Part shown: positions 14,084-45,288 of the stretch, one piece after another
How positions within the stretch are numbered: position 1 is the first letter of the stretch
Layout: each line of letters opens with the position of its first letter
DNA from: Gammaproteobacteria bacterium RIFOXYD12_FULL_61_37
GTDB taxonomy: Bacteria > Pseudomonadota > Gammaproteobacteria > Chromatiales > Chromatiaceae
DNA: 64,000 nucleotides
Reading direction: 5' to 3'
NCBI GenBank assembly: GCA_001801995.1
Contig: MGZB01000041.1
Coordinates: 1-64,000, forward strand
Made by a program: the position numbers and the translations under genes
Notes under the pieces: generated by a model
Database searches by the model: none
What the model was told of the DNA's origin: nothing
The model's input: the letters and a program-made list of their open reading frames with translations, nothing else

Positions 14084-15580
14084 ATGCTGACGCGCCTAAA
14101 AATCAATGGTTTCAAGAATCTTGCGGATGTGGATATCCGTTTCGGGCCATTCACATGTATCGCAGGCGCCAACGGGGTTGGTAAATCTAACCTGTTCGAC
14201 GCTATTCGATTTCTTAGTGCTCTTGCCGATATGCCGTTCCTGGCGGCTGCACAAATCGTTCGAGATGAGGAAGGGCTGTCGGGTGATATTCGTGGCCTTT
14301 TCCATCGCATCGGTGATGCTGCACCTGACCCGATGACATTCGAGGCCGAGATGATCGTGCCTCGCCAAGGGCAGGATAATCTTGGGCAGCCTGCCGAGGC
14401 TACTACTACGTTTCTACGCTATAAGTTGGAATTGGCGTATCAGCCGGATGGTGCATCCAGTACGAGAGGCACTTTAAAATTGGTGCATGAATCGTTGGAC
14501 TACTACAAGAAAGGGGAGGCGCATCAACATCTCCTATTCAAGCATGTTGTAAAGACTTGGCGTGATTCGTTGGGGTTTGGTAAGCGTACATCGCCTTTTA
14601 TTTCCACGGACGTCGAGGGTGGTAAGAGGAGAATAAAGCTGCACCAAGATCGACAAGATGACAAGGGAGGTGGGAGGGCTCGATTGTTGCTCGCGGATAG
14701 TTTGCCCCGTACCGTGTTATCGGATACTAACGCTTCAGAGAGTCCAACAGCCCTTCTTGCACGACTGGAGATGCGCTCATGGCGGCTATTGCAATTGGAA
14801 CCAACGGCATTGAGGAAGCCCGATGGATTCAATGCCCCTAACCGACTTGGCGTGGATGGCGCCCATCTGGCGAAATCGCTCTACACCCAAGCAAACGCAG
14901 ATACTATTCACGAAGGCACTCAGATTGGAGCTAACAGTAATAAAGTTTACTCTCAGATCACGAATCGCCTAAGCCAACTGCTCGACGATGTTCGGACCGT
15001 AAGGGTTGATCGAGATGAAAAGCGGGAGCTCCTGACACTGGAGGTAGCAGGCCGGGACGGGACATTCCATCCGGCACGTTCGCTGTCTGATGGAACACTG
15101 CGTTTTTTAGCTTTAGCTGTGCTGGAGCTTGAACATATCCCTGGTGTGCTCTGTTTTGAAGAGCCTGAAAACGGAATTCATCCACAACGTATCACTGCAA
15201 TATTGGAATTATTGCAGGATATTGCGGTTGACACGACAGAAAAGGTGAGTATTGATAACCCGTTGCGGCAGGTGATTATCAATACTCACTCACCCGGAGT
15301 TGTCTCCCTTGTGCCTACTGATAGCTTGGTAGTAGCAGACTTACAAGAGGGTGTCGACCCAGTTACAAAAATACGGTTTCAGCACACACGGTTCAGTGCT
15401 CTTTCAGGCACATGGAGAACAAACAGTCCTTCGAATTTTAGAGAAGTGAGCCTGGGTAAACTACTCTCCTATCTTAATCCCGCAGCGGATGAGAAATCAG
15501 ATTTAAAATCGATGCCAGCAAAGCCTCGTCTAGTTAAAGAGTACGTTGCAGAGCAAATCGATTTGGAGTTCCCAGAATGA
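14084..15580 (+). CDS. AAA-family (ABC-like, AAA_15/21) ATPase of a putative two-gene defence module
   Basis: A 498-residue SMC/OLD-like ATPase. The N-terminus MLTRLKINGFKNLADVDI leads into Walker A GANGVGKSN (about 30-38). After a long variable middle region come the ABC signature-like SLSDGTLRFLALAVL, the Walker B motif VLCFEEPENGIHP and the H-switch NTHSPGVV. There is no C-terminal TOPRIM domain; the protein ends soon after the ATPase core. The next gene overlaps by 4 nt (ATGA) and supplies a TOPRIM-like protein. The layout resembles PARIS (AriA ATPase + AriB TOPRIM) or a split OLD nuclease. A good GGGGGAG site precedes the ATG. Its AT-richer composition than the neighbours suggests acquisition. 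Confidence 0.8.
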   Translation: MLTRLKINGFKNLADVDIRFGPFTCIAGANGVGKSNLFDAIRFLSALADMPFLAAAQIVRDEEGLSGDIRGLFHRIGDAAPDPMTFEAEMIVPRQGQDNLGQPAEATTTFLRYKLELAYQPDGASSTRGTLKLVHESLDYYKKGEAHQHLLFKHVVKTWRDSLGFGKRTSPFISTDVEGGKRRIKLHQDRQDDKGGGRARLLLADSLPRTVLSDTNASESPTALLARLEMRSWRLLQLEPTALRKPDGFNAPNRLGVDGAHLAKSLYTQANADTIHEGTQIGANSNKVYSQITNRLSQLLDDVRTVRVDRDEKRELLTLEVAGRDGTFHPARSLSDGTLRFLALAVLELEHIPGVLCFEEPENGIHPQRITAILELLQDIAVDTTEKVSIDNPLRQVIINTHSPGVVSLVPTDSLVVADLQEGVDPVTKIRFQHTRFSALSGTWRTNSPSNFREVSLGKLLSYLNPAADEKSDLKSMPAKPRLVKEYVAEQIDLEFPE

Positions 15581-16236
15581 ATCGACTGCGTTTTACTTTG
15601 GTCACGGAGGGTAGTTCCGATAGGGTGCTGCTGCCCATCTTGCGCTGGTTATTGAGTCAGCACAATGAGGACTTGCCGATAGATGGCGAATGGGCCGATC
15701 TGGCAAGATTACCTTCCCCACCGCGCTCGTTAGCGGAGAAGATCGCCAAAGGGATACAGCTTTATCCTTGCGACCTGCTTTTTGTCCATAGAGATGCCGA
15801 CAGGATGACAAGGGAGCAGCGCATACAGGAGATCGATGAGGCTATCGAGGGAGCACAAAAGGCATTAGCTAAAAAGTCGGTTAAAGATCCCATGCCTCAT
15901 CATATTTGCGTAATTCCCGTGCGCATGTCGGAGGCATGGCTATTGTTCGACATCGACGCCATTAAATATGCCGCATCAAATCCAAATGGGACGATGGACC
16001 TGCAGTTACCCGCTTTGAAGAGTGTGGAGAACCTGCCCGATCCTAAAGATGTTCTCTATGAACTGTTGAATTCCGCCAGTGGGCTGAGTGGACGTGCACT
16101 AAAAAAATTCAAACCACAAGTCGGTGTTCATCGTCTTGTTGACTACATTCAGGACTTCGCTCCTTTGCATCAGCTGCACGCGTTCGAAGTATTGAACAGC
16201 GATGTAGATAAGTACTGTGCAGCTCATGCTGGATAA
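15577..16236 (+). CDS. TOPRIM/DUF4276-like protein, putative effector partner of the ATPase
   Basis: A 219-residue protein beginning RFTLVTEGSSDRVLLPIL, which fits the TOPRIM pattern of a conserved Glu after the first strand (VTEGSSD). The second acidic motif is LLFVHRDAD (DxD) at about residues 66-74. The segment VIPVRMSEAWLLFD is typical of DUF4276-type proteins found beside AAA ATPases. TOPRIM folds in this context are usually metal-dependent nucleases. Translation is coupled to the ATPase by an ATGA overlap. The family assignment is from motif memory only. If PARIS-like, the ATPase would hold the effector inactive until a phage trigger is sensed. Confidence 0.6.
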   Translation: MNRLRFTLVTEGSSDRVLLPILRWLLSQHNEDLPIDGEWADLARLPSPPRSLAEKIAKGIQLYPCDLLFVHRDADRMTREQRIQEIDEAIEGAQKALAKKSVKDPMPHHICVIPVRMSEAWLLFDIDAIKYAASNPNGTMDLQLPALKSVENLPDPKDVLYELLNSASGLSGRALKKFKPQVGVHRLVDYIQDFAPLHQLHAFEVLNSDVDKYCAAHAG

Positions 16237-16666: not shown

Positions 16667-17863
16667 ATGGCGCTCGCATCCATCTCTGACCTGAGGCTAC
16701 GGATCGAAACCGACCGCTTCGGTCCTTTCGTCTTCCAGCCTGGCATTATGGGGGCGGAGATCGGGATGGCGCTACAGCGGGTCGAGGATGCCCACGAACG
16801 CTTCGTCGCTTCGCCACTCTCCCAGGTGGCTAACCGCCTGGAGCAGGAAGTGGTGGTCGGCAGCGTGTTCGGCACCAACACCATCGAGGGCGGCACACTG
16901 ACCGAGGACGAGACCGCCAGTGCCCTGGCCCTTGACCCGGCCACGGTGCAAGGGGTCGAGCAGCAACGTGCCATCAACATCAAGGCGGCCTACGATCTGT
17001 CGCAAACCCTGGCCGTTACGCCCGGCTGGACCCTGAACACGTCGTTCATCGTCGAACTGCATCGACTGATCACCCAGAAACTTCCCCATCCCGACAACCG
17101 GCCCGGCCAGTTACGTGACAACCCCAAAACACGCATTACCTTCGTCGGCGACGAGGCCCATGGCGGGCGCTATAAACCGCCGCAATATGGCAGGGACATC
17201 GAGCGCCTGCTGGATGCCCTGGTCGCCTGGCACGGGGAATTGGCGACGGCCGGCATCCCGGCCACGATTCGCGCGCCGCTCGTGCATCTCTACTACGAGC
17301 AGATCCATCCCTTCTGGGACGGCAACGGCCGCGTTGGTCGCGTCATCGAGGCCACGTTGCTCCAGGCTGCCGGATACCGCTACGCGCCCTTTGCGCTGGC
17401 CCGCTATTACCTGACGAACATCGACGCCTACTTCAGTCTCTTCAACACCTGCCGCAAGGCCGCCGAAAAAGGGCAACCTGCGCCCAACCAGGCGTTTATC
17501 GCCTTCCACCTCGAAGGCATGCGCCTGACGATCAACGGCCTGCAAGATCGCGTCAATCGCCTGGTCGCCATGCTGCTTTACGAGAGCAACATCCGCCGTG
17601 CCCTGGATGAAAAGCGGATCAATGCCCGGCAGTACACCATCCTTTCCCAACTGCTCGACCGGGGGCGACCGCTGCCCCTCGACGAGGTCCGCCGGGCGCC
17701 CTGGTATACCAGTCTCTACCTCAAACGCAACGACAAGACACGGAGCCGCGATTTGCACCGTCTGCGGGAAATGGAACTGGCCTTCCTCGACACCGACAAC
17801 GCGCTTTGGCCCAGCTTCACCCCACCCAAAAACATCAAGCCGCTGGGAAAAAAGGAATCATGA
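16667..17863 (+). CDS. Fic-domain protein (putative AMPylase) with N-terminal inhibitory helix
   Basis: A 398-residue class-II Fic protein. The catalytic motif is HPFWDGNGRVGR with His214, a full match to HxFx(D/E)GNGRxxR, so AMP transfer to a target hydroxyl is plausible. The auto-inhibitory motif (S/T)xxxE(G/N) is present as TNTIEG (Thr70, Glu74, Gly75), which places the inhibitory helix in the same chain. A C-terminal winged-helix-like region (about 310-390) ends in a basic tail. No separate antitoxin gene is needed. The ATG at 16667 follows AGGA; MGAEIGMAL at 16748 is a later alternative. It sits at the edge of a defence-like island; such Fic proteins can act as regulators or toxins. Confidence 0.88.
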   Translation: MALASISDLRLRIETDRFGPFVFQPGIMGAEIGMALQRVEDAHERFVASPLSQVANRLEQEVVVGSVFGTNTIEGGTLTEDETASALALDPATVQGVEQQRAINIKAAYDLSQTLAVTPGWTLNTSFIVELHRLITQKLPHPDNRPGQLRDNPKTRITFVGDEAHGGRYKPPQYGRDIERLLDALVAWHGELATAGIPATIRAPLVHLYYEQIHPFWDGNGRVGRVIEATLLQAAGYRYAPFALARYYLTNIDAYFSLFNTCRKAAEKGQPAPNQAFIAFHLEGMRLTINGLQDRVNRLVAMLLYESNIRRALDEKRINARQYTILSQLLDRGRPLPLDEVRRAPWYTSLYLKRNDKTRSRDLHRLREMELAFLDTDNALWPSFTPPKNIKPLGKKES

Positions 17864-29824: not shown

Positions 29825-29855
29825 TGAGGCACAGGGAAACGCCTCTCGGGAAATA

Positions 29856-29897
29856 GACTGGATGGAACGGGTAAAGCCGTTCCATCCGGTCTTTTTT
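29856..29897 (+). terminator. strong rho-independent terminator
   Basis: A 15-bp stem, 29856-29870 paired with 29877-29891 with one mismatch, has a 6-nt loop and is followed directly by TTTTTT (29892-29897). This is the canonical intrinsic terminator of the csp transcript and lies just past the stop of the convergent LTA-synthase-like gene. Confidence 0.9.
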
Positions 29898-32069
29898 CTA
29901 TCCCTCGCGGTTATCGACCGTGACGTTGAACTCTTCCAGTTGCACAGCGGCATCCTTGCCCTCGCCCAGGAGATGGAACGAGAGGTATTGCCTGGGTCTG
30001 GGATTGTCGAAGGCGAATTCGAGCCGGCCCTCTTCCATGGCGTGGAGGATGGGGAAGTTGTCGTGTTGGATCTCGTCGATGGCGCCTTCCCACTGCTTGA
30101 TCGCCAGCTTGAGCTGTACCCCCTCCGTCGGCGCCTTTATCACCTTTACCTTGATCGACACGCTCACCCTGGAGCGGGCCGGGAAGTCGAGGTACTGGGC
30201 GCCCACCAGGTTGTCGGACCATTCGTTGGTGATCTTTTCCGGTAGCTTGCGGATCTCCCCATTGGCAAATTTCAATACCTTCAGCCCCCGTTGCGGGGTG
30301 AGTTTCTGGTCCAGTTTCGCCGTGACGAGGAAGACCTGGGCGCCGCCGCCTTCCTTGTCGCGGGCGAAATCGGCCGGGGGCGGGCCTATGAGGCTGCCGG
30401 ACTTGCCTACCCGGCAACGGCCGTCGTCGGAGCATTCATAACGGAGGTTTTGCGCCGTGTGCCAACGGCGTTTGGAAGTGGTGTAGGAGACCATCTCGCG
30501 GGGTTCGCCGTAGTCGCGGAAGAAGCTTCTGCCGATCAGGGAGGGCGGCATCGGCAGACCCAGGTAATCCAGGATGGATGCCTCCATATCCACCAGACCA
30601 TAGCCGCCACCCTTGAGCCGGGGGAGCTGCCTGGCCTCCGGGGCCAGGACGACCCCCATCCCCCAACTGCTGACCCAATCGGCCTTGTCGGAGCCGTGGG
30701 ACTCGTCCGAGGTGATGATGACCAGGGTGTCCTTCAGCACCCCATCCTTGCGCAGATCCGTAATGAACCTGGCCACCGCCTGGTCCAGCAGGTCCACGGT
30801 CGCGGCCCTTCGGTCGGGATACTTGGCGGCGATCTCGCCGGGCACCGCGTAGGGCTGGTGCGTACCCACGGTCAGCAGGGTCAGCATCCAGGGACGGTGC
30901 TTCTTGCGCAGACCCGCGATGTAGTTGCGCGCGCCGCGAAAGAAGACCGAGTCGATCACCCCCCATTCAAAGGGATAGGGATTGGCTTCCTTAAACCATT
31001 CGGTGCCGTGAACCTTCTGGAATCCGACCAGGGGCATGAAACGGTCCTTGCCCATGAAGCCCAGACCGGCCCCTTGCAGAAAATGGGTGTCCCAGCCGTT
31101 CTTGGCCATCTGGGCGGGGAGGCAATTCGCGGCGCGCTCCGGGAGACTCTGTAGCTCGATGGCCTTGGGTGTGTCCCAGGAGAGTTTGTCGAAATCGCCG
31201 CACAGCAGGGAGTAGAGCCCGCGGATGGTCTGGTGGCTATGGTCCACGAAGTCGGGGATCAGCATGGCATCCTGCGTGACCGCCGCCAGCTTGGTCATGG
31301 AGACATCCGGATAATCGACCCCCATGGCCTTGCGGATCTCGGGATGATAGAGGCCCGGCATGCCCTCCAGGGTGATGATGAGGACATTCTTGGCCGCCCC
31401 CTTGGGCAGGATGGCACTGCCGTCCAGATCCAGCCGGTTCAGACCCTGGGGCAAGGTGAAGTTGGCCAGTGCCTCCGGAGACCAGCGCGGCGGCGAGACG
31501 ATGGCATCCAGGATGAACCAATGAAGGGCGTTGTGGCGCGAGGCCACGCTCTGATCGTCATGGTTGATGCTCAGATAGCCCTGGACCGACAGAAGAGCGG
31601 CCCCGGCCGCCAGCCCGGCTGGAAGCAGATATTTCACCCTGGGCCTGGCGGCGGGCAACAGGCAGACCAGCCCCGCCGACAGCAATAACGACCAGACCAG
31701 GCCCGGTGAAGAGACATTGAAGCTGGCCGTGCTGTTTCTTACAAAGGCGGGATCGGCCAGATAGTGAAGGTCCTCCCAGGAAGGCAGCCGCTGCATCGCC
31801 GCCAAAAGTTCGCTGGCGCCGGTCTGAAAGGCGGCCCAGGAGAGGGCCAGGATCATGCGCAGCCAATGGGGGCTGTAAAGGAGCAGGAGCAGCAGCAGGA
31901 GCCCGGCTCCGCCATCGGAGAGCAAACCGATGGGCTCCCCGCCGCCCCTCTGGGCAAGGCGCCAGAGCATCGGGGTCAAGGCCAAGGCGCCAAGGGAGGC
32001 GAGGGCGATTTTCTGTTTAAGTCCCCGGATTCTCAAAGTGAGCGAAACGGTTGAGTCAACTGTGGGCAC
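29898..32069 (-). CDS. LTA synthase-like membrane sulfatase-fold transferase
   Basis: A 723-residue alkaline-phosphatase-superfamily protein. Five hydrophobic N-terminal helices (to about 190) are followed by a periplasmic sulfatase domain (about 225-545). Metal and catalytic residues are visible: Glu in LIITLEGMPG, the Thr nucleophile in DHSHQTIRGLYSLLCG, and Asp/His in ITSDESHGSDK. Proteins of this class transfer phosphoglycerol or phosphoethanolamine to glycans (LtaS, OpgB, EptA relatives). A C-terminal beta-rich region of about 150 residues ends the protein. It heads toward the terminator at 29856 and lies downstream of polysaccharide genes, so it probably decorates the glycan made there. 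The upstream start is uncertain. Confidence 0.8.
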   Translation of the reverse strand: MPTVDSTVSLTLRIRGLKQKIALASLGALALTPMLWRLAQRGGGEPIGLLSDGGAGLLLLLLLLYSPHWLRMILALSWAAFQTGASELLAAMQRLPSWEDLHYLADPAFVRNSTASFNVSSPGLVWSLLLSAGLVCLLPAARPRVKYLLPAGLAAGAALLSVQGYLSINHDDQSVASRHNALHWFILDAIVSPPRWSPEALANFTLPQGLNRLDLDGSAILPKGAAKNVLIITLEGMPGLYHPEIRKAMGVDYPDVSMTKLAAVTQDAMLIPDFVDHSHQTIRGLYSLLCGDFDKLSWDTPKAIELQSLPERAANCLPAQMAKNGWDTHFLQGAGLGFMGKDRFMPLVGFQKVHGTEWFKEANPYPFEWGVIDSVFFRGARNYIAGLRKKHRPWMLTLLTVGTHQPYAVPGEIAAKYPDRRAATVDLLDQAVARFITDLRKDGVLKDTLVIITSDESHGSDKADWVSSWGMGVVLAPEARQLPRLKGGGYGLVDMEASILDYLGLPMPPSLIGRSFFRDYGEPREMVSYTTSKRRWHTAQNLRYECSDDGRCRVGKSGSLIGPPPADFARDKEGGGAQVFLVTAKLDQKLTPQRGLKVLKFANGEIRKLPEKITNEWSDNLVGAQYLDFPARSRVSVSIKVKVIKAPTEGVQLKLAIKQWEGAIDEIQHDNFPILHAMEEGRLEFAFDNPRPRQYLSFHLLGEGKDAAVQLEEFNVTVDNREG

Positions 32070-32217
32070 CCTGTTAAACCTCGGGAGAAGAAGAGTGGTT
32101 GTTTCTTCGAACCCATTTCAACGACATCAAACCTTTCCTGTTCCCAGAGAGCGGGTCACGGCAGTTTTCCGAGGATTGAAGATGGATTCCAGAGAGAGTT
32201 GGCTGGATTTTAAGCAG

Positions 32218-33297
32218 CTACTCCAGCCCCTGCGGGCGGGCAATCCAGAATGGGCTGGCGACAGCGTTCCGGTAGGCATTGAGGGAACCCATGGAGGATT
32301 GCACGCGGATGTTGCTGTAACTGAGGTCGGCGTTCTGCCAGCGTTCCTGCCAATAGACCGCCGCCTTCAGGCGCGGGTAGCTTTGCGCCATCCGCTGAAA
32401 CCCCTCGGCGATGAAGGCTCCCTTGTCGCCGTCATCGGGAAACTCGCCCACACCCCACTCCGCCAGGATGAAGGGTTTGGCGGGGGCCAGCTTTGTCAGC
32501 TTGGCGTAGGCATCGTCAAAGATTGATTCGAAGTTATACCAGCTTTGCTGGGGGAACTGTTTTCCATAGGCCGAGATGCCGACCCAATCCACGTAGTCGT
32601 CGCCCGGATAATATTGGGTGACATCGTTCCAGGCATCGCCCGGTCCTGCCGGTTCCGACCCATTGTTGCCGTGAAACACCCACTCGACATTGAAGGCCCC
32701 CTGCTGCCGCACCCTGTCCACCACATAGCGGTAGGCGCGCTTGTAGGTCTCGGGTCCCTGGTAGAGCGGCGGATCGGAACCGGGCACCGGGGTGCCGGCG
32801 CCGAAGAATAGGCCAGACCAAGGGAACCAGTTACCGTTCATCTCCATGCCCCAGGACACCAGCAGCGGCCGTCCCCACGCCTTGGCCTCCCTCGCCCAGT
32901 CGTCGATATAGCCATCGGCCTGGCCGTCGAGAATTTTATCGAGCGTGAAACGGCCACCCATGTTCAGGTAGTAGGGCGGCTCCCAGGGGGACCAGTAGAT
33001 CAGGGGAGCGGCCCCATAGGCCTGGATGATCTTGAGTTGCCGTGTGGGGAAATGGCCCTCGCCCCAGAAATTGGAGAAGGCGACGAGGGCCTGGTGCTTG
33101 CCCACCATCTCCCCGAAGGCCTCCATGGCATCGAAGGACAACTGATCCTCGGCATCGCCCGCGCCCAGATAGGCCCCCGTATAGGCCCCTTGCGCCGGCA
33201 CCGCCAGACGCGGCGCGCGGTCCGTTTCCGCAGCCCCCGCCGGGAGGGAGAGGAGACCGATCAGGCCGGCCAGTCCAAGGATGCGCCAATGTTTCAA
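32218..33297 (-). CDS. exported GH26-like glycoside hydrolase
   Basis: A secreted protein of about 359 residues with a signal peptide (HWRILGLAGLIGLLSLPAGAA) and a TIM-barrel domain resembling GH26 beta-mannanases. The general acid/base Glu is in SWGMEMNGNWFPW and the nucleophile Glu in FILAEWGVGEF. The segment YYPGDDYVDWVGISAYGK is also typical. The start is probably the TTG at 33297, since the longer frame to 33369 runs into the repeat element and adds an unlikely N-terminus. The neighbouring LTA-synthase-like and GT2 genes suggest a role in trimming an envelope or exported polysaccharide. Confidence 0.75.
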   Translation of the reverse strand: MKHWRILGLAGLIGLLSLPAGAAETDRAPRLAVPAQGAYTGAYLGAGDAEDQLSFDAMEAFGEMVGKHQALVAFSNFWGEGHFPTRQLKIIQAYGAAPLIYWSPWEPPYYLNMGGRFTLDKILDGQADGYIDDWAREAKAWGRPLLVSWGMEMNGNWFPWSGLFFGAGTPVPGSDPPLYQGPETYKRAYRYVVDRVRQQGAFNVEWVFHGNNGSEPAGPGDAWNDVTQYYPGDDYVDWVGISAYGKQFPQQSWYNFESIFDDAYAKLTKLAPAKPFILAEWGVGEFPDDGDKGAFIAEGFQRMAQSYPRLKAAVYWQERWQNADLSYSNIRVQSSMGSLNAYRNAVASPFWIARPQGLE

Positions 33298-33755
33298 CCT
33301 ATAAACCTCTTTTAAACCGCAAAGGACGCCAAGAACGCTAAGAACGCTAAGGAAACCCATCCGATGCATTTGTTCGGCGCATCCCTGCGCCTCACCCCTT
33401 CGGGGCTGGCGCGAAAACCCGCTCCCGACGGATTTTTGTTCGGCGCATCCCTGCGCCTCACCCCTCCGGGGCTGGCGCGAAAATCCGCTCCCGGCGGTTT
33501 TTTGTTCGGCGCATCCCTGCGCCTCACCCCTCCGGGGCTGGCGCGAAAATCCGCTCCCGGCGGTTTTTTGTTCGGCGCATCCCTGCGCCTCACCCCTCCG
33601 GGGCTGGCGCGAAAATCCGCTCCCGACGGTTTTTTGTCTGTGCGCTCACCTTCCTGGTCAGGGGCAAAACCTAGACAAGCCAATGAATTCCTTCGCGTTC
33701 CTTCGCGTTCCTTCGCGTTCTTTGCGGTTAAACGAGGAAATTAGGTTCAATGGAC
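33298..33755. other. intergenic repeat region between polysaccharide genes
   Basis: 458 bp with no gene. Almost all of it is one repeat element (33312-33732). Open frames run through it on both strands only because the 66-bp period is a multiple of three and free of stops. Confidence 0.7.
33312..33732. repeat. 66-bp tandem array with inverted CGCGAAGG-type flanks
   Basis: Four consecutive 66-bp copies run from 33369 to 33632, each beginning TTGTTCGGCGCATCCCTGCG. The inner copies are nearly identical and the first is the most divergent. The array is flanked by inverted low-complexity arms: 33314-33354 reads AAACCGCAAAGG with GAACGCTAAG units, and 33686-33732 is its complement with three CCTTCGCGTT units ending TTTGCGGTTAAA. 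The AACCGCAAAGG/AACGC pattern is a common extragenic repeat in proteobacterial genomes. Not CRISPR: no spacers. Confidence 0.85.
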
Positions 33756-36700
33756 TCATGCGGATTCCCGCCCCTTGCCGATCAATACCGTGCCCCGTCG
33801 TTCCAACTTGCTCCAGCCGCCCCATTTGCCGCGCAGGGTGCGGAAGATGGAACGCCATACCGCGTAGGCCAACAGCGGCCGATAGACCAATCGCATCAGC
33901 AGGATATAGCCCGCCTGCCAGACCGATTCTTTCTCCATGACGCAGGCCAGAACCGCCAGGACCAGATCCACCAGCAGGAAGATCACCGCGTAGTTGACGA
34001 TGGCCAGGCCGAAGCCCCAGATCAAGGAAAGAATCAGCAGGGCATCCACCAGCGGGATGACCGCCACCAGGAACATCTGGAACAGGGCGATGCTGGGCAA
34101 GCTGAAGAACGCCAAGGCGCCATATTTGGGGTTGAAGACCATGTCGCGGTGTTTCCACAGGCATTGCAGGGTGCCGAAGGACCAGCGCACCCGTTGCTTC
34201 GCCAGGGCGGTGACGCTGTCCGGGGCCTCGGTCCAGGCCACGGCCTCCGGGTTGTAGCGCACCCGGTAACCGGCCCGGTGCAGGGCTAGGGTCAGATCGG
34301 TATCCTCCGCCAGGGTATCGTCGGAGATGCCGCCGACCGCGCCGATGGCGCTTCTTGACATGGCACAGGCCGCACCCGGTACCACGGTGACGCAGTTCCA
34401 CTCGTCGTAGGCGCGGCGGTCCAGGTTGAAGCCGCAGGTGTATTCCAGGGACTGGAAGCGTCCCAGCCAGCCGCGGCGATTGCCCACCTTGACGTGACCC
34501 GACACGGCGCCCACACCCGGCGGAACCAGATAGCGCACCAGTTCCTGGATTGTGTCCGGCTGGAACTGGGTGTCGGCGTCCAGCATCACCAGGATTTCGT
34601 GATGGGACGCCTGGAGGGCGTTTTGCAGGGCCTTGGCCTTGCCCTGATTGGGCTGGCGGATCAACCGCACACGCGGGTCGGCGGCGGCCACGGCATCGAC
34701 GATATCGGCAGTGTGATCGCGCGAGCCATCGTCCACTACCACCACCTCCACCTCACCCTTGTAGCGGGTGTTCAGGACCGAGCGCAGGGTGGCCTCGATC
34801 ACCTTGGTCTCGTTGTAGGCGGCGATCAGCACCGACACCGGCGGCGCTTCATCCAACAGCGGCGGCGGATGGCGCCGCAGCCGCCGCTCGTGGCGAATCG
34901 CCAGCCAGAGCACCACCAGGGTGCGCAGGAGCACCAGGATCGTGGCGAGTATCATGAAGGCCCAGAAGAAGCGTTCCAGGAAGCGGATGACATCGAAGCC
35001 GGCGCGGGTCACCCACTGTTTCTCGACCGAGACCACCGGCATCAGGGCGTTGCGGTCGGCACCCACCAGTTGCGCCAGGCTGACGACGTGGTCGCCACGA
35101 TCCTGGAGGTAATCGATGAGCCGAGGCAGTGCCTTGATGGTCTGGGTACGGTCGCCGCCGCTGTCATGCATGAGGATGACATTGCCCCCCTGGGACTCGG
35201 AGCGGCTGGACTTCACCCGCTGCACGATCTCATCCACGCCGGGCCTGTCCCAGTCGGTGGTGTCGATGCTTTGGGTAACGGTGACGTAACCCAATTCCTG
35301 GACGCTCAGCAGCGGCTCCACCTCCGCGATGGTGCTGGGTTGGCTGTCCACGTTGTAGGGTGGCCGGAACAGCACCGTTGACCGGCCCACCAGCCCCTCC
35401 AGCAGGTGCTGGGTCGCGTTCAGCTCCAGATTCAGGCGCCGGCGCGACACCAGCGAGAGATTGGGATGGGTGTAGGTGCACCCCCAGCTCGTGGCCCTCA
35501 TCGACGATGCGCCGCACCAGGTCGGGGTAGAGGGCGGCCTGGGAGCCGATCACGAAGAAGCTCGCCTTGACCCCCTTTTCCTTGAGGACATCCAGGATGT
35601 CCGGGGTCCACTGGGGATCGGGGCCATCATCGAAACTGATGGCCACTGCGTCGGGATCACCGGCCCCGGCGTGATAGACGGTGGGGAGGACCGGAAATTG
35701 CTCATACTCGGTGCTCCACAGCTCCCCGTCATCGGCCTGCACCTTGCGCCGGCCGGGGCTGTGGGCATTTTCCACCCGTAGAAAATCACCCTCGCCGATA
35801 TGCGTGAAACGGTCTGGGCTCTCCAGTACCGATAACGTCTGCGGGGTCTGGTTCGGGGCCAGTGCCCCGAGGGCCTTGGGGTCCTCGGTACCCAGCCGGT
35901 AGAGGGCAATGCCGGCAACGCCGTACTGGCGAGCCAGCTCGACCTGGTTGCGGAAGCTGATGGCGTCGAGGAACCAGACCTGATGGTTCTTGCCCCGGTC
36001 GTTATAAGAGAAGTGGGGGCTGTAGCTCGGGGCGCGGGTAAAGACCGCTGTCCCCGGTTGATTCTGGGCCCGGGCCATGGCGTCGAGGAAACCGATGGTC
36101 TCGGGCGTACCCTTTTCCGGCCAGTCGTAGCCGTAACTGCCGATGCCGATCACCCATTGCTTGGGGTCGCCGTAGCCCAGCAGCACTTCGAGCCATTGGT
36201 TGAACCAGGGCTGGGAGGCCAGAGGGCCGGGCGGGTCGTCCTCGCCGTTTTCGTCATAGAGCATGGCGAGGAAGTGGTCCACCGTCTCCGCCAGGGTATC
36301 GAGATCGAGGAGCTTCACGTCCAGCCCAACCGGAACCGCCAGCCAAAGCTCCAGCTTGTGTGCGTGCAGAACGGAGGCAAGCATGGCCATCAGGGTGGAA
36401 TATTGCGGCCGGTAGACCGGGTCCACCTGTTGCCAGTCGATCAAAACGCCCGAGTAATCTCCATTGCTCAGACGATTGGCCAGATCCTCCGCGAAGCTCC
36501 GTTGTCCCTCGGGTTTCTCGCGCAGCAGCGTCTCTACCGCTTCCGGTTGCCAGACGCCTTCCATATTGTTGTTGAGCAAGGCGATGGATTTCAGACCACT
36601 GGCCTTTACCACTTCGATCAGATCGGGGTTCTGAGGGGCGGTAACAAGTCGCGGGGGCATGTCACCCAGGTAAAAGGCTTCAGGGATCACATGGCTCAAC

Positions 36701-37053
36701 CGGGTAGCATTTTCCTTGAGAGAGTGCAGGCTGTTGGGATCTTGGCCCACATAGAAGGCGGCACGCACATCCATGCCACCGTTGGGCAGGGTAGGGCGCA
36801 GGGTGCGACGGGATTTTTCCAGCCAGGATGGTGGGCTCATGCCCGGATGCGACTGCTCGGTGGCGATGAGGGCGTGCAGTGCCCGTTCAGGATTGGTGCG
36901 TTGGTCAAGGAGGGCGAGGCGGGGGGTGACCATCAGCACCTGGATGAAACCGATGCCCAAGGACAGCGCAACCAGGCTGGTCAGGATCGCCCATAACCAG
37001 AATCGGCCCCAGCGCTTACAGGTCAGATCGGAAAAAACACCCTTGCCACTCAT
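33756..37053 (-). pseudogene. frameshifted three-domain protein: GH18-like + polysaccharide deacetylase + GT2
   Basis: Two overlapping frames (35230-37053 and 33756-35501) encode one protein of about 1,100 residues. The N-terminus has a membrane helix, then a GH18-like domain (GVLIDWQQVD, GIGSYGYDWPEKG). A NodB-type deacetylase domain follows (AISFDDGPDPQ, LFRPPYN, LMHDSGG). Last come a membrane helix and a processive GT2 domain (SVLIAAYNE, VVVDDGS, MLDADTQF, LAEDTDL, QRVRW) with C-terminal helices. The frame breaks at about 35477-35482: loss of 2 nt (AC) from CACAC destroys the metal-binding HTYTHP motif. Intact, it would polymerise and de-N-acetylate a GlcNAc polymer. It may be a sequencing error or a real mutation; the GT2 half could still be made from an internal start. 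Confidence 0.8.
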
Positions 37054-37136
37054 CGGTAATTCATCGGCTCAGTCGAGTCTGGGACGTTATCGGTTCGATT
37101 GCGTTGTAACTATTCCGCTCAATGCGCAAGGTAGGA

Positions 37137-38372
37137 TCAAGGCTCGCCGAAAAGGTTCCGCAGGGTCGCCGGGATCTCCCCCTTGGGAATCAGCCGGTTA
37201 TCCTCGCCGATTTCGTAGATGCCGAACCACTCCTCGGGGTCGGCTGGTTCGTGCTGGTTCTCGTCGCCTGGTACCCAGCCGATCTTCCACCACTCGTCCT
37301 GGAACTCGAAGAAGACCAAGCCGCCGAAGCGCTCCCGGTCCCTCGCCGTGCGGATGTCCCGCCAGACCGATTCGAACACCGCCGGTATCTTCGCCACGTC
37401 CCGGCCGCCGTAATCGACCACCTCGGGCTTGGGCATGATGGGCGAGGTGGAGAGCCCCACCTGGGTCACCAGGATGGGCTTGGCCGAGCCGGCGGCCAGC
37501 TCTTCAAGATAGCCCTGGAAGGGAGTCCCTGTGACCGATCCCGGCGGCGAACTCATGACGCCGTGGGCATAGGTGTAGATGTTCATGCAGTAGAGATCGC
37601 CCATATCCGGCACCAGGACATGCTCGCGCGGGATATCCAGGTCGGGGCGGTCGGCCAGGGGGCCGATATGGGTCCAACTGGTGTGGCAATAGAGGTGGCG
37701 CTGGCCGTAGCGGGTCAGCTCGTAGTCCATGGCCTCGTCGATGAGGCGGGCAAGGGCGACCTCGCTGGCGGTGCGTCCCGTCACGGAGAGGTGCTTGCCC
37801 CGGTAGTCGCGGACCTCCGGGTGGCGCTTGTTGGTGTTCTCCACCGTGGCGGCCTGCAATTCGTCACCGACGGAGAAGAGCACCAGACGACCGGGGCGGC
37901 CCGTTGCGTAGGTATGGTCGATGACCTGCTTGATGCTGGCGAGGGTGTCGGACTGGTACTTCTCGTCCAGGATGTCGGGGCTGAAGGGATCGATCCAGAT
38001 GTCCTGGCCATAGACCAGGTCCGTGCCGTCGAGGGCGGCGAAGAAATTGGCCGGCATGCGCAGGGGGAAGACATGAAGGTAATTCACCCCCATCCCTTTG
38101 AGCAGGTCGAGATGCCCCGGATAACGCCCGTCGTTGCCCGGCCCCGCCCCCTGCTGCGGGGTCTCGCCCTTCAGATAGGGCGAATAGCCCATGCCACGGA
38201 AGAAGACCGGCTTGCCGCTGGCATTGTCCAGGAGCCGGGTCTCCTGGACGACGAACCGGCGCGGCTGGGGCGTGTCGGCATGGATCTGGGCCGTCTTGCC
38301 GGATGCCTCCACAGCGGCGGCAGGCAGCAAAAGGGAGCAAGCAAGGAGTAGGAGCGGAAATCGGTTGTTCAT
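37137..38372 (-). CDS. exported TIM-barrel glycoside hydrolase-like protein
   Basis: A 411-residue secreted protein with signal peptide MNNRFPLLLLACSLLLPAAA. The N-terminal QETRLLDNASGKPVFFRGMGYSP is typical of GH2/GH5-type clan A TIM barrels. Later segments such as FSVGDEL, LVTQVGLST and FFEFQDEWWK could hold the catalytic acids, but neither can be assigned with certainty because the usual NEP motif is not obvious. It lies upstream of the GT2 fusion and in the same direction, so it likely belongs to the same polysaccharide cluster. A new family member or a non-catalytic binding protein is possible. Confidence 0.65.
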   Translation of the reverse strand: MNNRFPLLLLACSLLLPAAAVEASGKTAQIHADTPQPRRFVVQETRLLDNASGKPVFFRGMGYSPYLKGETPQQGAGPGNDGRYPGHLDLLKGMGVNYLHVFPLRMPANFFAALDGTDLVYGQDIWIDPFSPDILDEKYQSDTLASIKQVIDHTYATGRPGRLVLFSVGDELQAATVENTNKRHPEVRDYRGKHLSVTGRTASEVALARLIDEAMDYELTRYGQRHLYCHTSWTHIGPLADRPDLDIPREHVLVPDMGDLYCMNIYTYAHGVMSSPPGSVTGTPFQGYLEELAAGSAKPILVTQVGLSTSPIMPKPEVVDYGGRDVAKIPAVFESVWRDIRTARDRERFGGLVFFEFQDEWWKIGWVPGDENQHEPADPEEWFGIYEIGEDNRLIPKGEIPATLRNLFGEP

Positions 38373-44334: not shown

Positions 44335-45288
44335 GTGAAACTGAGCGAGTTGGCGAAAGAGATCGGTGTCGATTGTGCCGGCGATGGCCCGGAGATCAGG
44401 GGAATCAATACCCTGACCGATGCCAGGGGCGATGAACTCAGTTTCTTCCACAACGCCAAATACGCCAGGGAGCTGGAAACCACCCAGGCGGCGGCCGTGC
44501 TGGTGGAAGAGCGGATGGTCCCGCTGCTGCCGGCGGGGACCATTCCCCTGATCACCGATGAGCCTTACGTGAAACTGGCCCTGGCCAGCAAGCACTTCGC
44601 CAGGCCCCCCCTGCGGCCGGAGGGGGCAGACCCCATCCTGGGCGCCGGTTGTCTCCTTGCCCCCAACGTCAGCCTGGGCCGGGATGTGGTGATCGGCGGC
44701 AACGTCACCCTCATGAGCGGCGTCTGCATCGGCGACAATGTCCATATCGGCGACGGCTGCCTGCTCCATCCCAATGTCGTCGTCTACCCGGACTCCATCA
44801 TCGGCTCGCGTTGCATCCTCCAGGCGGGTGCCGTCATCGGCAGCGACGGCTTCGGATTCGCCACTACCCGTGAGGGGCGTCACATCAAGATCCACCAGCT
44901 CGGCAACGTCGTCATCGGCGATGATGTGGAGATCGGCGCCAACACCACCATAGACCGGGCCGCCTTCGGCTCCACCCTCATCAAGGAAGGCTGCAAGATC
45001 GACAACCTGGTCCAGATCGGCCACAACAGCGTCATCGGCGAACACGCCATCCTGGTCTCGCAGGTCGGGATATCCGGCTCCACCACCCTCGGGCGGAACG
45101 TCGTCATGGGCGGACAGAGCGCCACCATAGGCCATCTGGAGATCGGCGAATTCGCAATCATCTATGGGCGTGGCGTAGTGACGAAATCGCTTGAAGGCCG
45201 CAGACACTACGCCGGCTTTCCCCTGGTCGAACACCAAGCCTGGCTGAAGCTGCAAGGGAAGATAGCCCGGTTCTTCAAGGGCAAATAA
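44335..45288 (+). CDS. lpxD: LpxD, UDP-3-O-acylglucosamine N-acyltransferase
   Basis: A 317-residue left-handed beta-helix acyltransferase with hexapeptide repeats (about 105-270). The N-terminal uridine-binding domain is [20 protein letters not shown], and the catalytic His is in [12 protein letters not shown]. LpxD adds the second acyl chain in lipid A synthesis. It starts with GTG, with GGGAG about 15 nt and AGG directly upstream. It is not beside bamA, fabZ or lpxA as usual, so it is either a relocated gene or a second copy. It reads somewhat like the epsilonproteobacterial version ([23 protein letters not shown] spans the usual core). Confidence 0.93.

Follow-up and report, generated by a model that had tools for sequence, protein, structure and literature searches.

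A conserved gene pair for a GH18-CE4-GT2 fusion and a GH26 protein inside a putative composite glycan locus of the Chromatiaceae

A four-gene locus and its inner pair

Do four neighbouring genes that look like parts of one envelope polysaccharide pathway belong together? The question is raised by positions 29,898 to 38,372 of a 64,000-nucleotide stretch (positions 1 to 64,000 of contig MGZB01000041.1, assembly GCA_001801995.1; hereafter the window) from Gammaproteobacteria bacterium RIFOXYD12_FULL_61_37, a member of the Chromatiaceae whose genome (3.47 Mb in 57 contigs) is rated 100% complete. In the order of transcription, all on the minus strand, lie P0005, a region encoding GH18, CE4 and GT2 domains (here called the fusion), the GH26 gene P0002, and P0001, with gaps of 83-386 bp between the four genes. 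An earlier note on this DNA had read them as four large genes of a minimal locus, namely a phosphoglycerol/phosphoethanolamine-type transferase, two secreted TIM-barrel enzymes and a GH18-deacetylase-GT2 fusion, that makes a decorated, partly deacetylated glycan. The gene content was as stated there, except that the fusion consists of two frames (607 and 581 codons) and not one. Our preferred reading, which we consider about as probable as its contrary, is that the locus is composite: a two-gene glycan module forms its core between the members of a separate P0005-P0001 pair, and the synthase is broken here. What had misleadingly looked like a four-gene cluster would become a testable two-gene module, nearly perfectly co-inherited in the family and also present in Verrucomicrobiota.

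Co-occurrence was scored in 210 genomes of the same family, with the fusion called at E <=1e-80 and a GH26 protein called close at 52% identity or more, a line drawn after the hits had been seen. The fusion was present in 13 genomes and a close GH26 in 11, all of them among the 13, so that 11/13 fusion genomes carried it as against 0/197 of the others (Fisher p ~1e-16). Because the genomes are related, the count by genus is the fairer figure; a close GH26 was found in six of the seven genera with the fusion and in none of the 54 without it (p ~1e-7). When any GH26 at E <=1e-20 was admitted, the counts were 11/13 and 5/197 (p ~5e-13), five further family genomes having distant GH26 proteins only (34-40%) and no fusion at E <=1e-80. 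The two genes were adjacent in nine of the 11 genomes (the window, G022, G120, G090, G141, G055, G032, G123 and G528). Among ten same-family relatives whose loci were fetched, seven had the GH26 gene at most 250 bp downstream of the fusion, as did G528; two of the other three had no GH26 in a flank of at least 9 kb, and the third sequence ended after 674 bp. The fusion and the GH26 gene are a real, conserved two-gene module. Conservation of neighbours in relatives, which the earlier note had proposed as a check on all four genes, was found for this inner pair both in the family and in Verrucomicrobiota, but not for the four genes as a set.

Distribution outside the family

When genomes were scanned with the GT2 half, by a method that relies on short patterns of the query and reaches near relatives only, 45 loci were returned, of which 44 were from Verrucomicrobiota at 50-59% identity (L057, at 27%, was dropped). 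Where the titles of these records were more exact they named Spartobacteria, Chthoniobacterales, Udaeobacter or Chthoniobacter. A GH26 gene accompanied the fusion in 26 of the 44 loci, within 500 bp in 16 and at 2.2-6.6 kb in ten; 12 of the 18 loci without one have less than 1.5 kb of downstream sequence. In seven loci (L018, L020, L021, L031, L033, L037 and L041) the two genes are separated by 2.3-3.2 kb, and in L020 the gap is filled by a 723-codon frame on the opposite strand.

A tree of the GT2 half (26 rows, several of them on long branches and with a program warning) placed the window, G022, G090, G141, G055, G032, G123 and 13 rows from Verrucomicrobiota in one group (100/100). Outside it fell G057, G012 and the plasmid proteins of Sphingomonas, Sulfitobacter, Deinococcus and Prevotella. 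The placement of the window in the fusion tree was weak (84/63, long branch), and the GH26 tree separated the family from Verrucomicrobiota (100/99). The direction of transfer between the phyla was sought with the fusion and GH26 trees, which gave none.

Twenty-seven plasmid records gave a match to the GT2 half (E <=1e-40), and in 21 of these the match spanned 80% or more of the query. Four plasmid relatives were translated, and their GH18 region passed Pfam in three, the one from Sulfitobacter being the exception. In the Sulfitobacter plasmid (L084:4609-10187) the genes for the CE4-GT2 relative (without a match to GH18 at E 0.001) and for a DUF3131 protein overlap by four bases; the DUF3131 protein is possibly another dedicated partner of that relative.

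Domains of the fusion and the break in its frame

As had been claimed, the window encodes a GH18, a CE4 and a GT2 domain, in this order, between P0005 and the GH26 gene; they are spread over two frames. The first (35230-37053, minus strand) carries a membrane anchor recognised by eye, the GH18-like domain and the first half of CE4; the second (33756-35501, minus strand) carries the second half of CE4, a transmembrane stretch and a processive-type GT2. In profile searches, for which Pfam and NCBIfam were used, the GH18 region scored 47.9 bits against PF00704 (cut-off 29.6), and the corresponding region of the relative L077 gave no PF00704 match at E 0.001. In NCBIfam the GT2 half scored best against PgaC_IcaA (TIGR03937), at 202.3 bits, below the cut-off of 422.3; this half carries the DAD, ED and QxxRW motifs. 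It had six matches in the source genome: the window's own, one GH17-GT2 protein and four in open frames of 316-398 codons. The absence of pgaA that the earlier note had pointed out held for the whole source genome, where no match exceeded the family cut-off (best 29 bits).

Reading frames were surveyed in 48 loci of relatives, comprising 38 of the 44 from Verrucomicrobiota (all except L026, L028, L035, L038, L042 and L051) and ten from the same family. A single frame of more than 1,000 codons, with CE4 and GT2 in one polypeptide, was found in 43 of them; L032, L054, L055, L079 and L080 had no such frame and were dropped from the motif counts. The tested CE4 residues and the DAD, ED and QxxRW motifs of GT2 were invariant in 43/43 intact relatives, and in the DDG motif of GT2 the leading Asp was kept in 41 and replaced by Asn in two. 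Because these CE4 and GT2 residues are invariant, an intact copy gives the impression of a functional processive synthase that also carries a periplasmic deacetylase. A structure model of a Spartobacterial relative was modest (mean pLDDT 58, 21 sequences); its top PDB matches in Foldseek, for which aligned ranges were not given, were the GH18 protein SleL, hyaluronan synthase and CE4 deacetylases.

The window departs from these relatives. Aligned to the 43 intact copies it switches frame within the HxxxH motif of CE4, near 35,475-35,480 on the minus strand; the limits of the break come from this alignment and from the stop at 35550-35552, which bounds the second frame upstream. As assembled, the whole CE4 site lies in neither half. 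If the assembly is correct at the break, the synthase of the window is probably dead and the glycan module probably non-functional in this genome. For intact relatives, a partly deacetylated glycan made by a minimal synthase without a pgaA-type porin is a reasonable proposal; the locus found here, its fusion being split, would in its assembled form probably make none. In another relative, L066 (G100:C98:668-2311), the match contains four in-frame TAG codons, which may reflect decay or read-through.

The catalytic motif of GH18 is D-x-E. In the window the pair reads DWQ, the acid Glu being replaced by Gln. It is intact in 24 of the 43 intact relatives, that is in one of eight family members and in 23 of 35 Verrucomicrobiota. 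The damage within the family varies: the four genomes of one genus have Gln in place of Glu, and three others have Val or Ala in place of Asp. This variation suggests that hydrolytic activity was lost repeatedly and that the domain has a binding role. Nineteen of the 23 intact pairs in Verrucomicrobiota stand in loci with a visible GH26 gene; the Glu was retained in 19/21 aligned Verrucomicrobiota rows with GH26 as against 4/14 without, many of which are cut by contig ends.

The GH26 gene and the adjoining repeat

P0002 (32218-33369, minus strand), a predicted secreted protein, matched PF02156 at 50.4 bits (cut-off 20.2). Its residues E176 and E304, which we take to be the two catalytic Glu of GH26, were invariant in all 11 rows aligned. 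The nearest structure was endoglucanase H (E 7.6e-27), presumably the CtLic26A lichenase. The start of the gene at 33369 is doubtful, because positions 33369-33637, between the fusion and P0002, are occupied by an array of 4.1 tandem copies of a 66-bp repeat and because a TTG at 33297 yields, by eye, a better-looking signal peptide. The repeat is hairpin-rich, and the array matches 23 sites across the genome, single or in short arrays; it was rejected as a part of the module and regarded as a dispersed element.

The outer genes P0005 and P0001

P0001 (29898-32069, minus strand) encodes an LtaS/OpgB-like member of the alkaline phosphatase/sulfatase superfamily (PF00884, 92.7 bits) with membrane helices recognised by eye. 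Among NCBIfam models, phosphoglycerol transferase I came nearest, with 69.2 of the 572 bits required, and other equivalogs of the phosphoglycerol-transferase/LtaS type also stayed below their cut-offs (50.8 bits, cut-off 574; 37.0 bits, cut-off 970). No phosphoethanolamine-type model of Pfam or NCBIfam matched, so that of the two transferase types named in the earlier note the phosphoglycerol type is retained, as the nearest. Among 146 family genomes searched at E <=1e-15 no close relative of P0001 was found outside its own genus; a close P0001 occurred in two genomes, both of this genus, and two other matches were partial and 31-33% identical.

The sister species G001, the only genome of the same genus that surfaced in the comparison, is rated 100% complete. 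There P0005 (85-86% identical) adjoins P0001 (72%), the alignments lying about 160 bp apart, and no match was found to the GT2 half of the fusion at E 1e-30 or to GH26 at E 1e-20.

P0005 (37137-38372, minus strand; 411 aa) is a TIM-barrel-like protein of an unnamed family, secreted as judged from a signal peptide seen by eye. At E 0.01 neither Pfam nor NCBIfam gave a match to it, and its single-sequence structure model was unusable (pLDDT 36). A weak profile match (E 3.6e-7) led to 9fz9, a structure labelled 'GH2 catalytic domain'. Where 9fz9 has the Glu of its TEFG motif, P0005 has a Gln (Q304), which is invariant in all six rows, the window included. The Glu of 9fz9 is probably catalytic, because a second deposited sequence of the same protein carries Ala there. 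By this comparison P0005 does not have the nucleophile Glu of a GH2/GH5-type retaining glycosidase and probably lacks the standard mechanism of such enzymes. No paper containing the PDB codes 9fz9, 9g5g or 9g4n was found. P0005 and its relatives in L011, L012, L075, L096 and L097 could represent a pseudo-glycosidase family.

P0005 occurs in 6/210 family genomes and in one of 369 class-wide genomes, the window's own. It stands beside the fusion and GH26 only in the window and in G055, where it follows both, and none of the other three proteins was found around it in G557, G573 and G020, which belong to three other genera. Its association with the fusion is weak (2/6, p 0.046; without the window 1/5, p 0.26; genus level p 0.096).

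The source genome (G000) also encodes an NdvB-like GH17-GT2 synthase (L002 / L106, G000:C53:3696-6320). Of 12 family genomes checked, 11 have its gene, and the copies of G000 and G001 are 88% identical. No opgG match was found in the source genome, and on this ground an osmoregulated periplasmic glucan pathway was rejected as the setting of P0001.

Proposed function and alternative explanations

The domains and their residues suggest the following scheme for intact copies. An inner-membrane protein of about 1,100 residues would polymerise, by its cytoplasmic processive GT2 domain, a chain of N-acetylhexosamine and extrude it through its own membrane helices; we infer the sugar (GlcNAc), the linkage and the topology. 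The periplasmic CE4 domain would then partly de-N-acetylate the chain, while the N-terminal GH18-like barrel, often catalytically damaged, would hold or guide it. The secreted GH26 protein may trim the product in trans, as the hydrolase domain of PgaB, a GH153 barrel, does in cis. From sequence, then, intact copies are predicted to polymerise and partly deacetylate an amino-sugar glycan that GH26 trims. P0005 and P0001 would be a separate pair, which predates the module or survives without it in the genus, and P0001 more likely acts on another glycan or lipid, for instance the product of the GH17-GT2 synthase. The presence of LpxD near the locus (44,335-45,288) supports a cell with lipid A. 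If GH26 does trim an amino-sugar polymer, this would be a new activity in a well-known family and part of a single-chain alternative to pgaABCD. The full claim, that the GH18-like-CE4-GT2 protein and GH26 are an undescribed, porin-less two-gene system of a Gram-negative family and of Verrucomicrobiota, with a new GH26 specificity and a GH18 turned chain guide, seems to us somewhat unlikely.

Several observations weigh against the composite reading and the scheme attached to it. The sugar is unproven because the GT2 half scores below the PgaC cut-off, and a glucan would suit GH26 better than an amino-sugar polymer because its nearest structure is an endoglucanase. The pairing has exceptions: G057 and G553 carry the fusion and GH26 on separate contigs, two of the 13 fusion genomes (G100 and G012) have no close GH26, L036 and L042 have none despite 9-10 kb of flank, and no annotated GH26 lay within 6 kb in any of the four plasmid records inspected, for which the gene table is incomplete. 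Copies that are split or contain stops were also seen in L032, L054, L055, G100 and G012, and the break in the window may be an assembly error. The Verrucomicrobiota counts given above do not suit a simple substitution of GH26 for a dead GH18 either, an idea that was rejected because the correlation there runs the opposite way.

It might be argued that all four genes serve one pathway after all, with a synthase, two hydrolases and a phosphoglycerol decorator. Their common strand and short gaps speak for this, and P0005 lies beside the fusion and GH26 in both genomes that have both. However, G001 keeps the P0005-P0001 pair without fusion and GH26, close P0001 is confined to two genomes of this genus, P0005 occurs without the other three in three other genera, its association with the fusion is weak and the gene order differs in G055. 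We therefore regard a single pathway as quite unlikely, and the four-gene operon as a unit was rejected on the evidence of the sister species and the other genera. For the decoration postulated in the earlier note we found no evidence, the GH17-GT2 synthase offering an acceptor candidate at least as good. That P0001 adds phosphoglycerol to the product of this synthase, an NdvB-like cyclic glucan, and not to the glycan of the fusion is a tentative suggestion, still on the doubtful side. Both proteins are present in G000 and G001, and opgG is without a match in the source genome. GH17-GT2 proteins have been proposed as makers of cyclic glucans in pseudomonads (in a portion of PMC10237404), and glucans made by P. 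aeruginosa ndvB are glycerophosphorylated according to passages of PMC2997053 and PMC10237404. Yet the GH17-GT2 gene is found almost throughout the genomes checked whereas close P0001, in a search without G557 and G573, is limited to this genus, and the two genes lie on different contigs.

The product could also be an O-acetylated, lichenan-like beta-glucan, in which case CE4 would be an O-deacetylase and GH26 a lichenase-type trimmer. The likeness of GH26 to endoglucanase H fits this reading, as does the Foldseek result, in which the top-ranking CE4 entry (7fbw, 45% identity) bears the name acetylxylan esterase. The same chain, however, is also deposited as 'predicted xylanase/chitin deacetylase', the CE4 halves match NodB, PgdA and chitin deacetylases as well, the GT2 half is nearest to PgaC/NodC and the GH18-like barrel points to GlcNAc, which makes a beta-glucan unlikely in our judgement. 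A much closer question is whether the break merely reflects a mistake in sequencing or assembly and the window has an intact and active synthase; we put this only a little below an even chance. Both halves of the fusion are still open frames in which, the break itself excepted, the tested motifs are preserved (the GH18 acid being Gln), a run of five G immediately precedes it, and split fusion frames occur in the assemblies of several relatives. Against an error stand the rating of the assembly as 100% complete in 57 contigs, a rating that says nothing on single bases, and the lack of a second fusion copy in the source genome. The composite locus with a broken synthase remains the reading that we prefer.

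Comparison with known systems

To our knowledge, the nearest characterised protein to the fusion is MatB of Streptomyces. Like the fusion, MatB (acting with MatA) joins CE4 and a PgaC-like GT2 in one polypeptide via a transmembrane helix, and production of poly-N-acetylglucosamine (PNAG) was shown experimentally; it differs in having two domains, no GH18-like domain being described in the sections of that paper on the protein, and in its monoderm host (PMC5972031). Closer in host are the Gram-negative pgaB clades that are fused to a glycosyltransferase and occur without pgaA and pgaD, for which PNAG was not shown in the part of PMC7112194 that treats them. In these clades the glycosyltransferase is N-terminal, whereas in the fusion it lies C-terminal to CE4, and the section of that study on fused pgaB makes no mention of a GH18 domain or a GH26 neighbour. 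PgaB of pgaABCD, as presented in parts of PMC5933820, likewise couples a periplasmic deacetylase to a TIM-barrel hydrolase, but there the GT2 is a separate protein (PgaC), the barrel is of another family and PgaB works with PgaA and PgaD. The GH17-GT2 'Orphan'/NdvB cyclic-glucan synthases resemble the fusion in that a periplasmic TIM barrel is joined via membrane helices to GT2; in the passages of PMC10237404 that describe them they have no CE4 and make a glucan.

For P0001 the comparison is with the phosphoglycerol transferases LtaS and OpgB, which are likewise membrane-anchored proteins of the PF00884 superfamily; P0001 differs in scoring far below the equivalog cut-offs, in a genome where opgG has no match. 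No report of a GH18-CE4-GT2 triple fusion was found in a search of titles and the starts of abstracts, which lay mostly outside subscription journals and did not cover the fusion and GH26 together. CE4-GT2 synthases and Gram-negative fusions of a glycosyltransferase with a deacetylase are already known, and among the literature found, as far as its accessible parts go, the addition of GH18 is unreported.

Other features of the window

A terminator-like hairpin of 16 pairs followed by a T-run lies at 29855-29892, just 3' of P0001 and ahead of a cold-shock gene. Eleven such hairpins were counted in the region as against 7.5 (sd 2.9) in shuffled sequences, a small excess. At 14084-16236 a pair of genes of low G+C content encodes an AAA (AbiEii-like) ATPase and a DUF4276-like protein, the latter below the DUF4276 family cut-off. 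The best PADLOC matches of the pair were HEC-01A (314 bits) and HEC-01B (74 bits), which make it a candidate anti-phage system. It is followed at 16667-17863 by a gene for a Fic protein with a match to SoFic.

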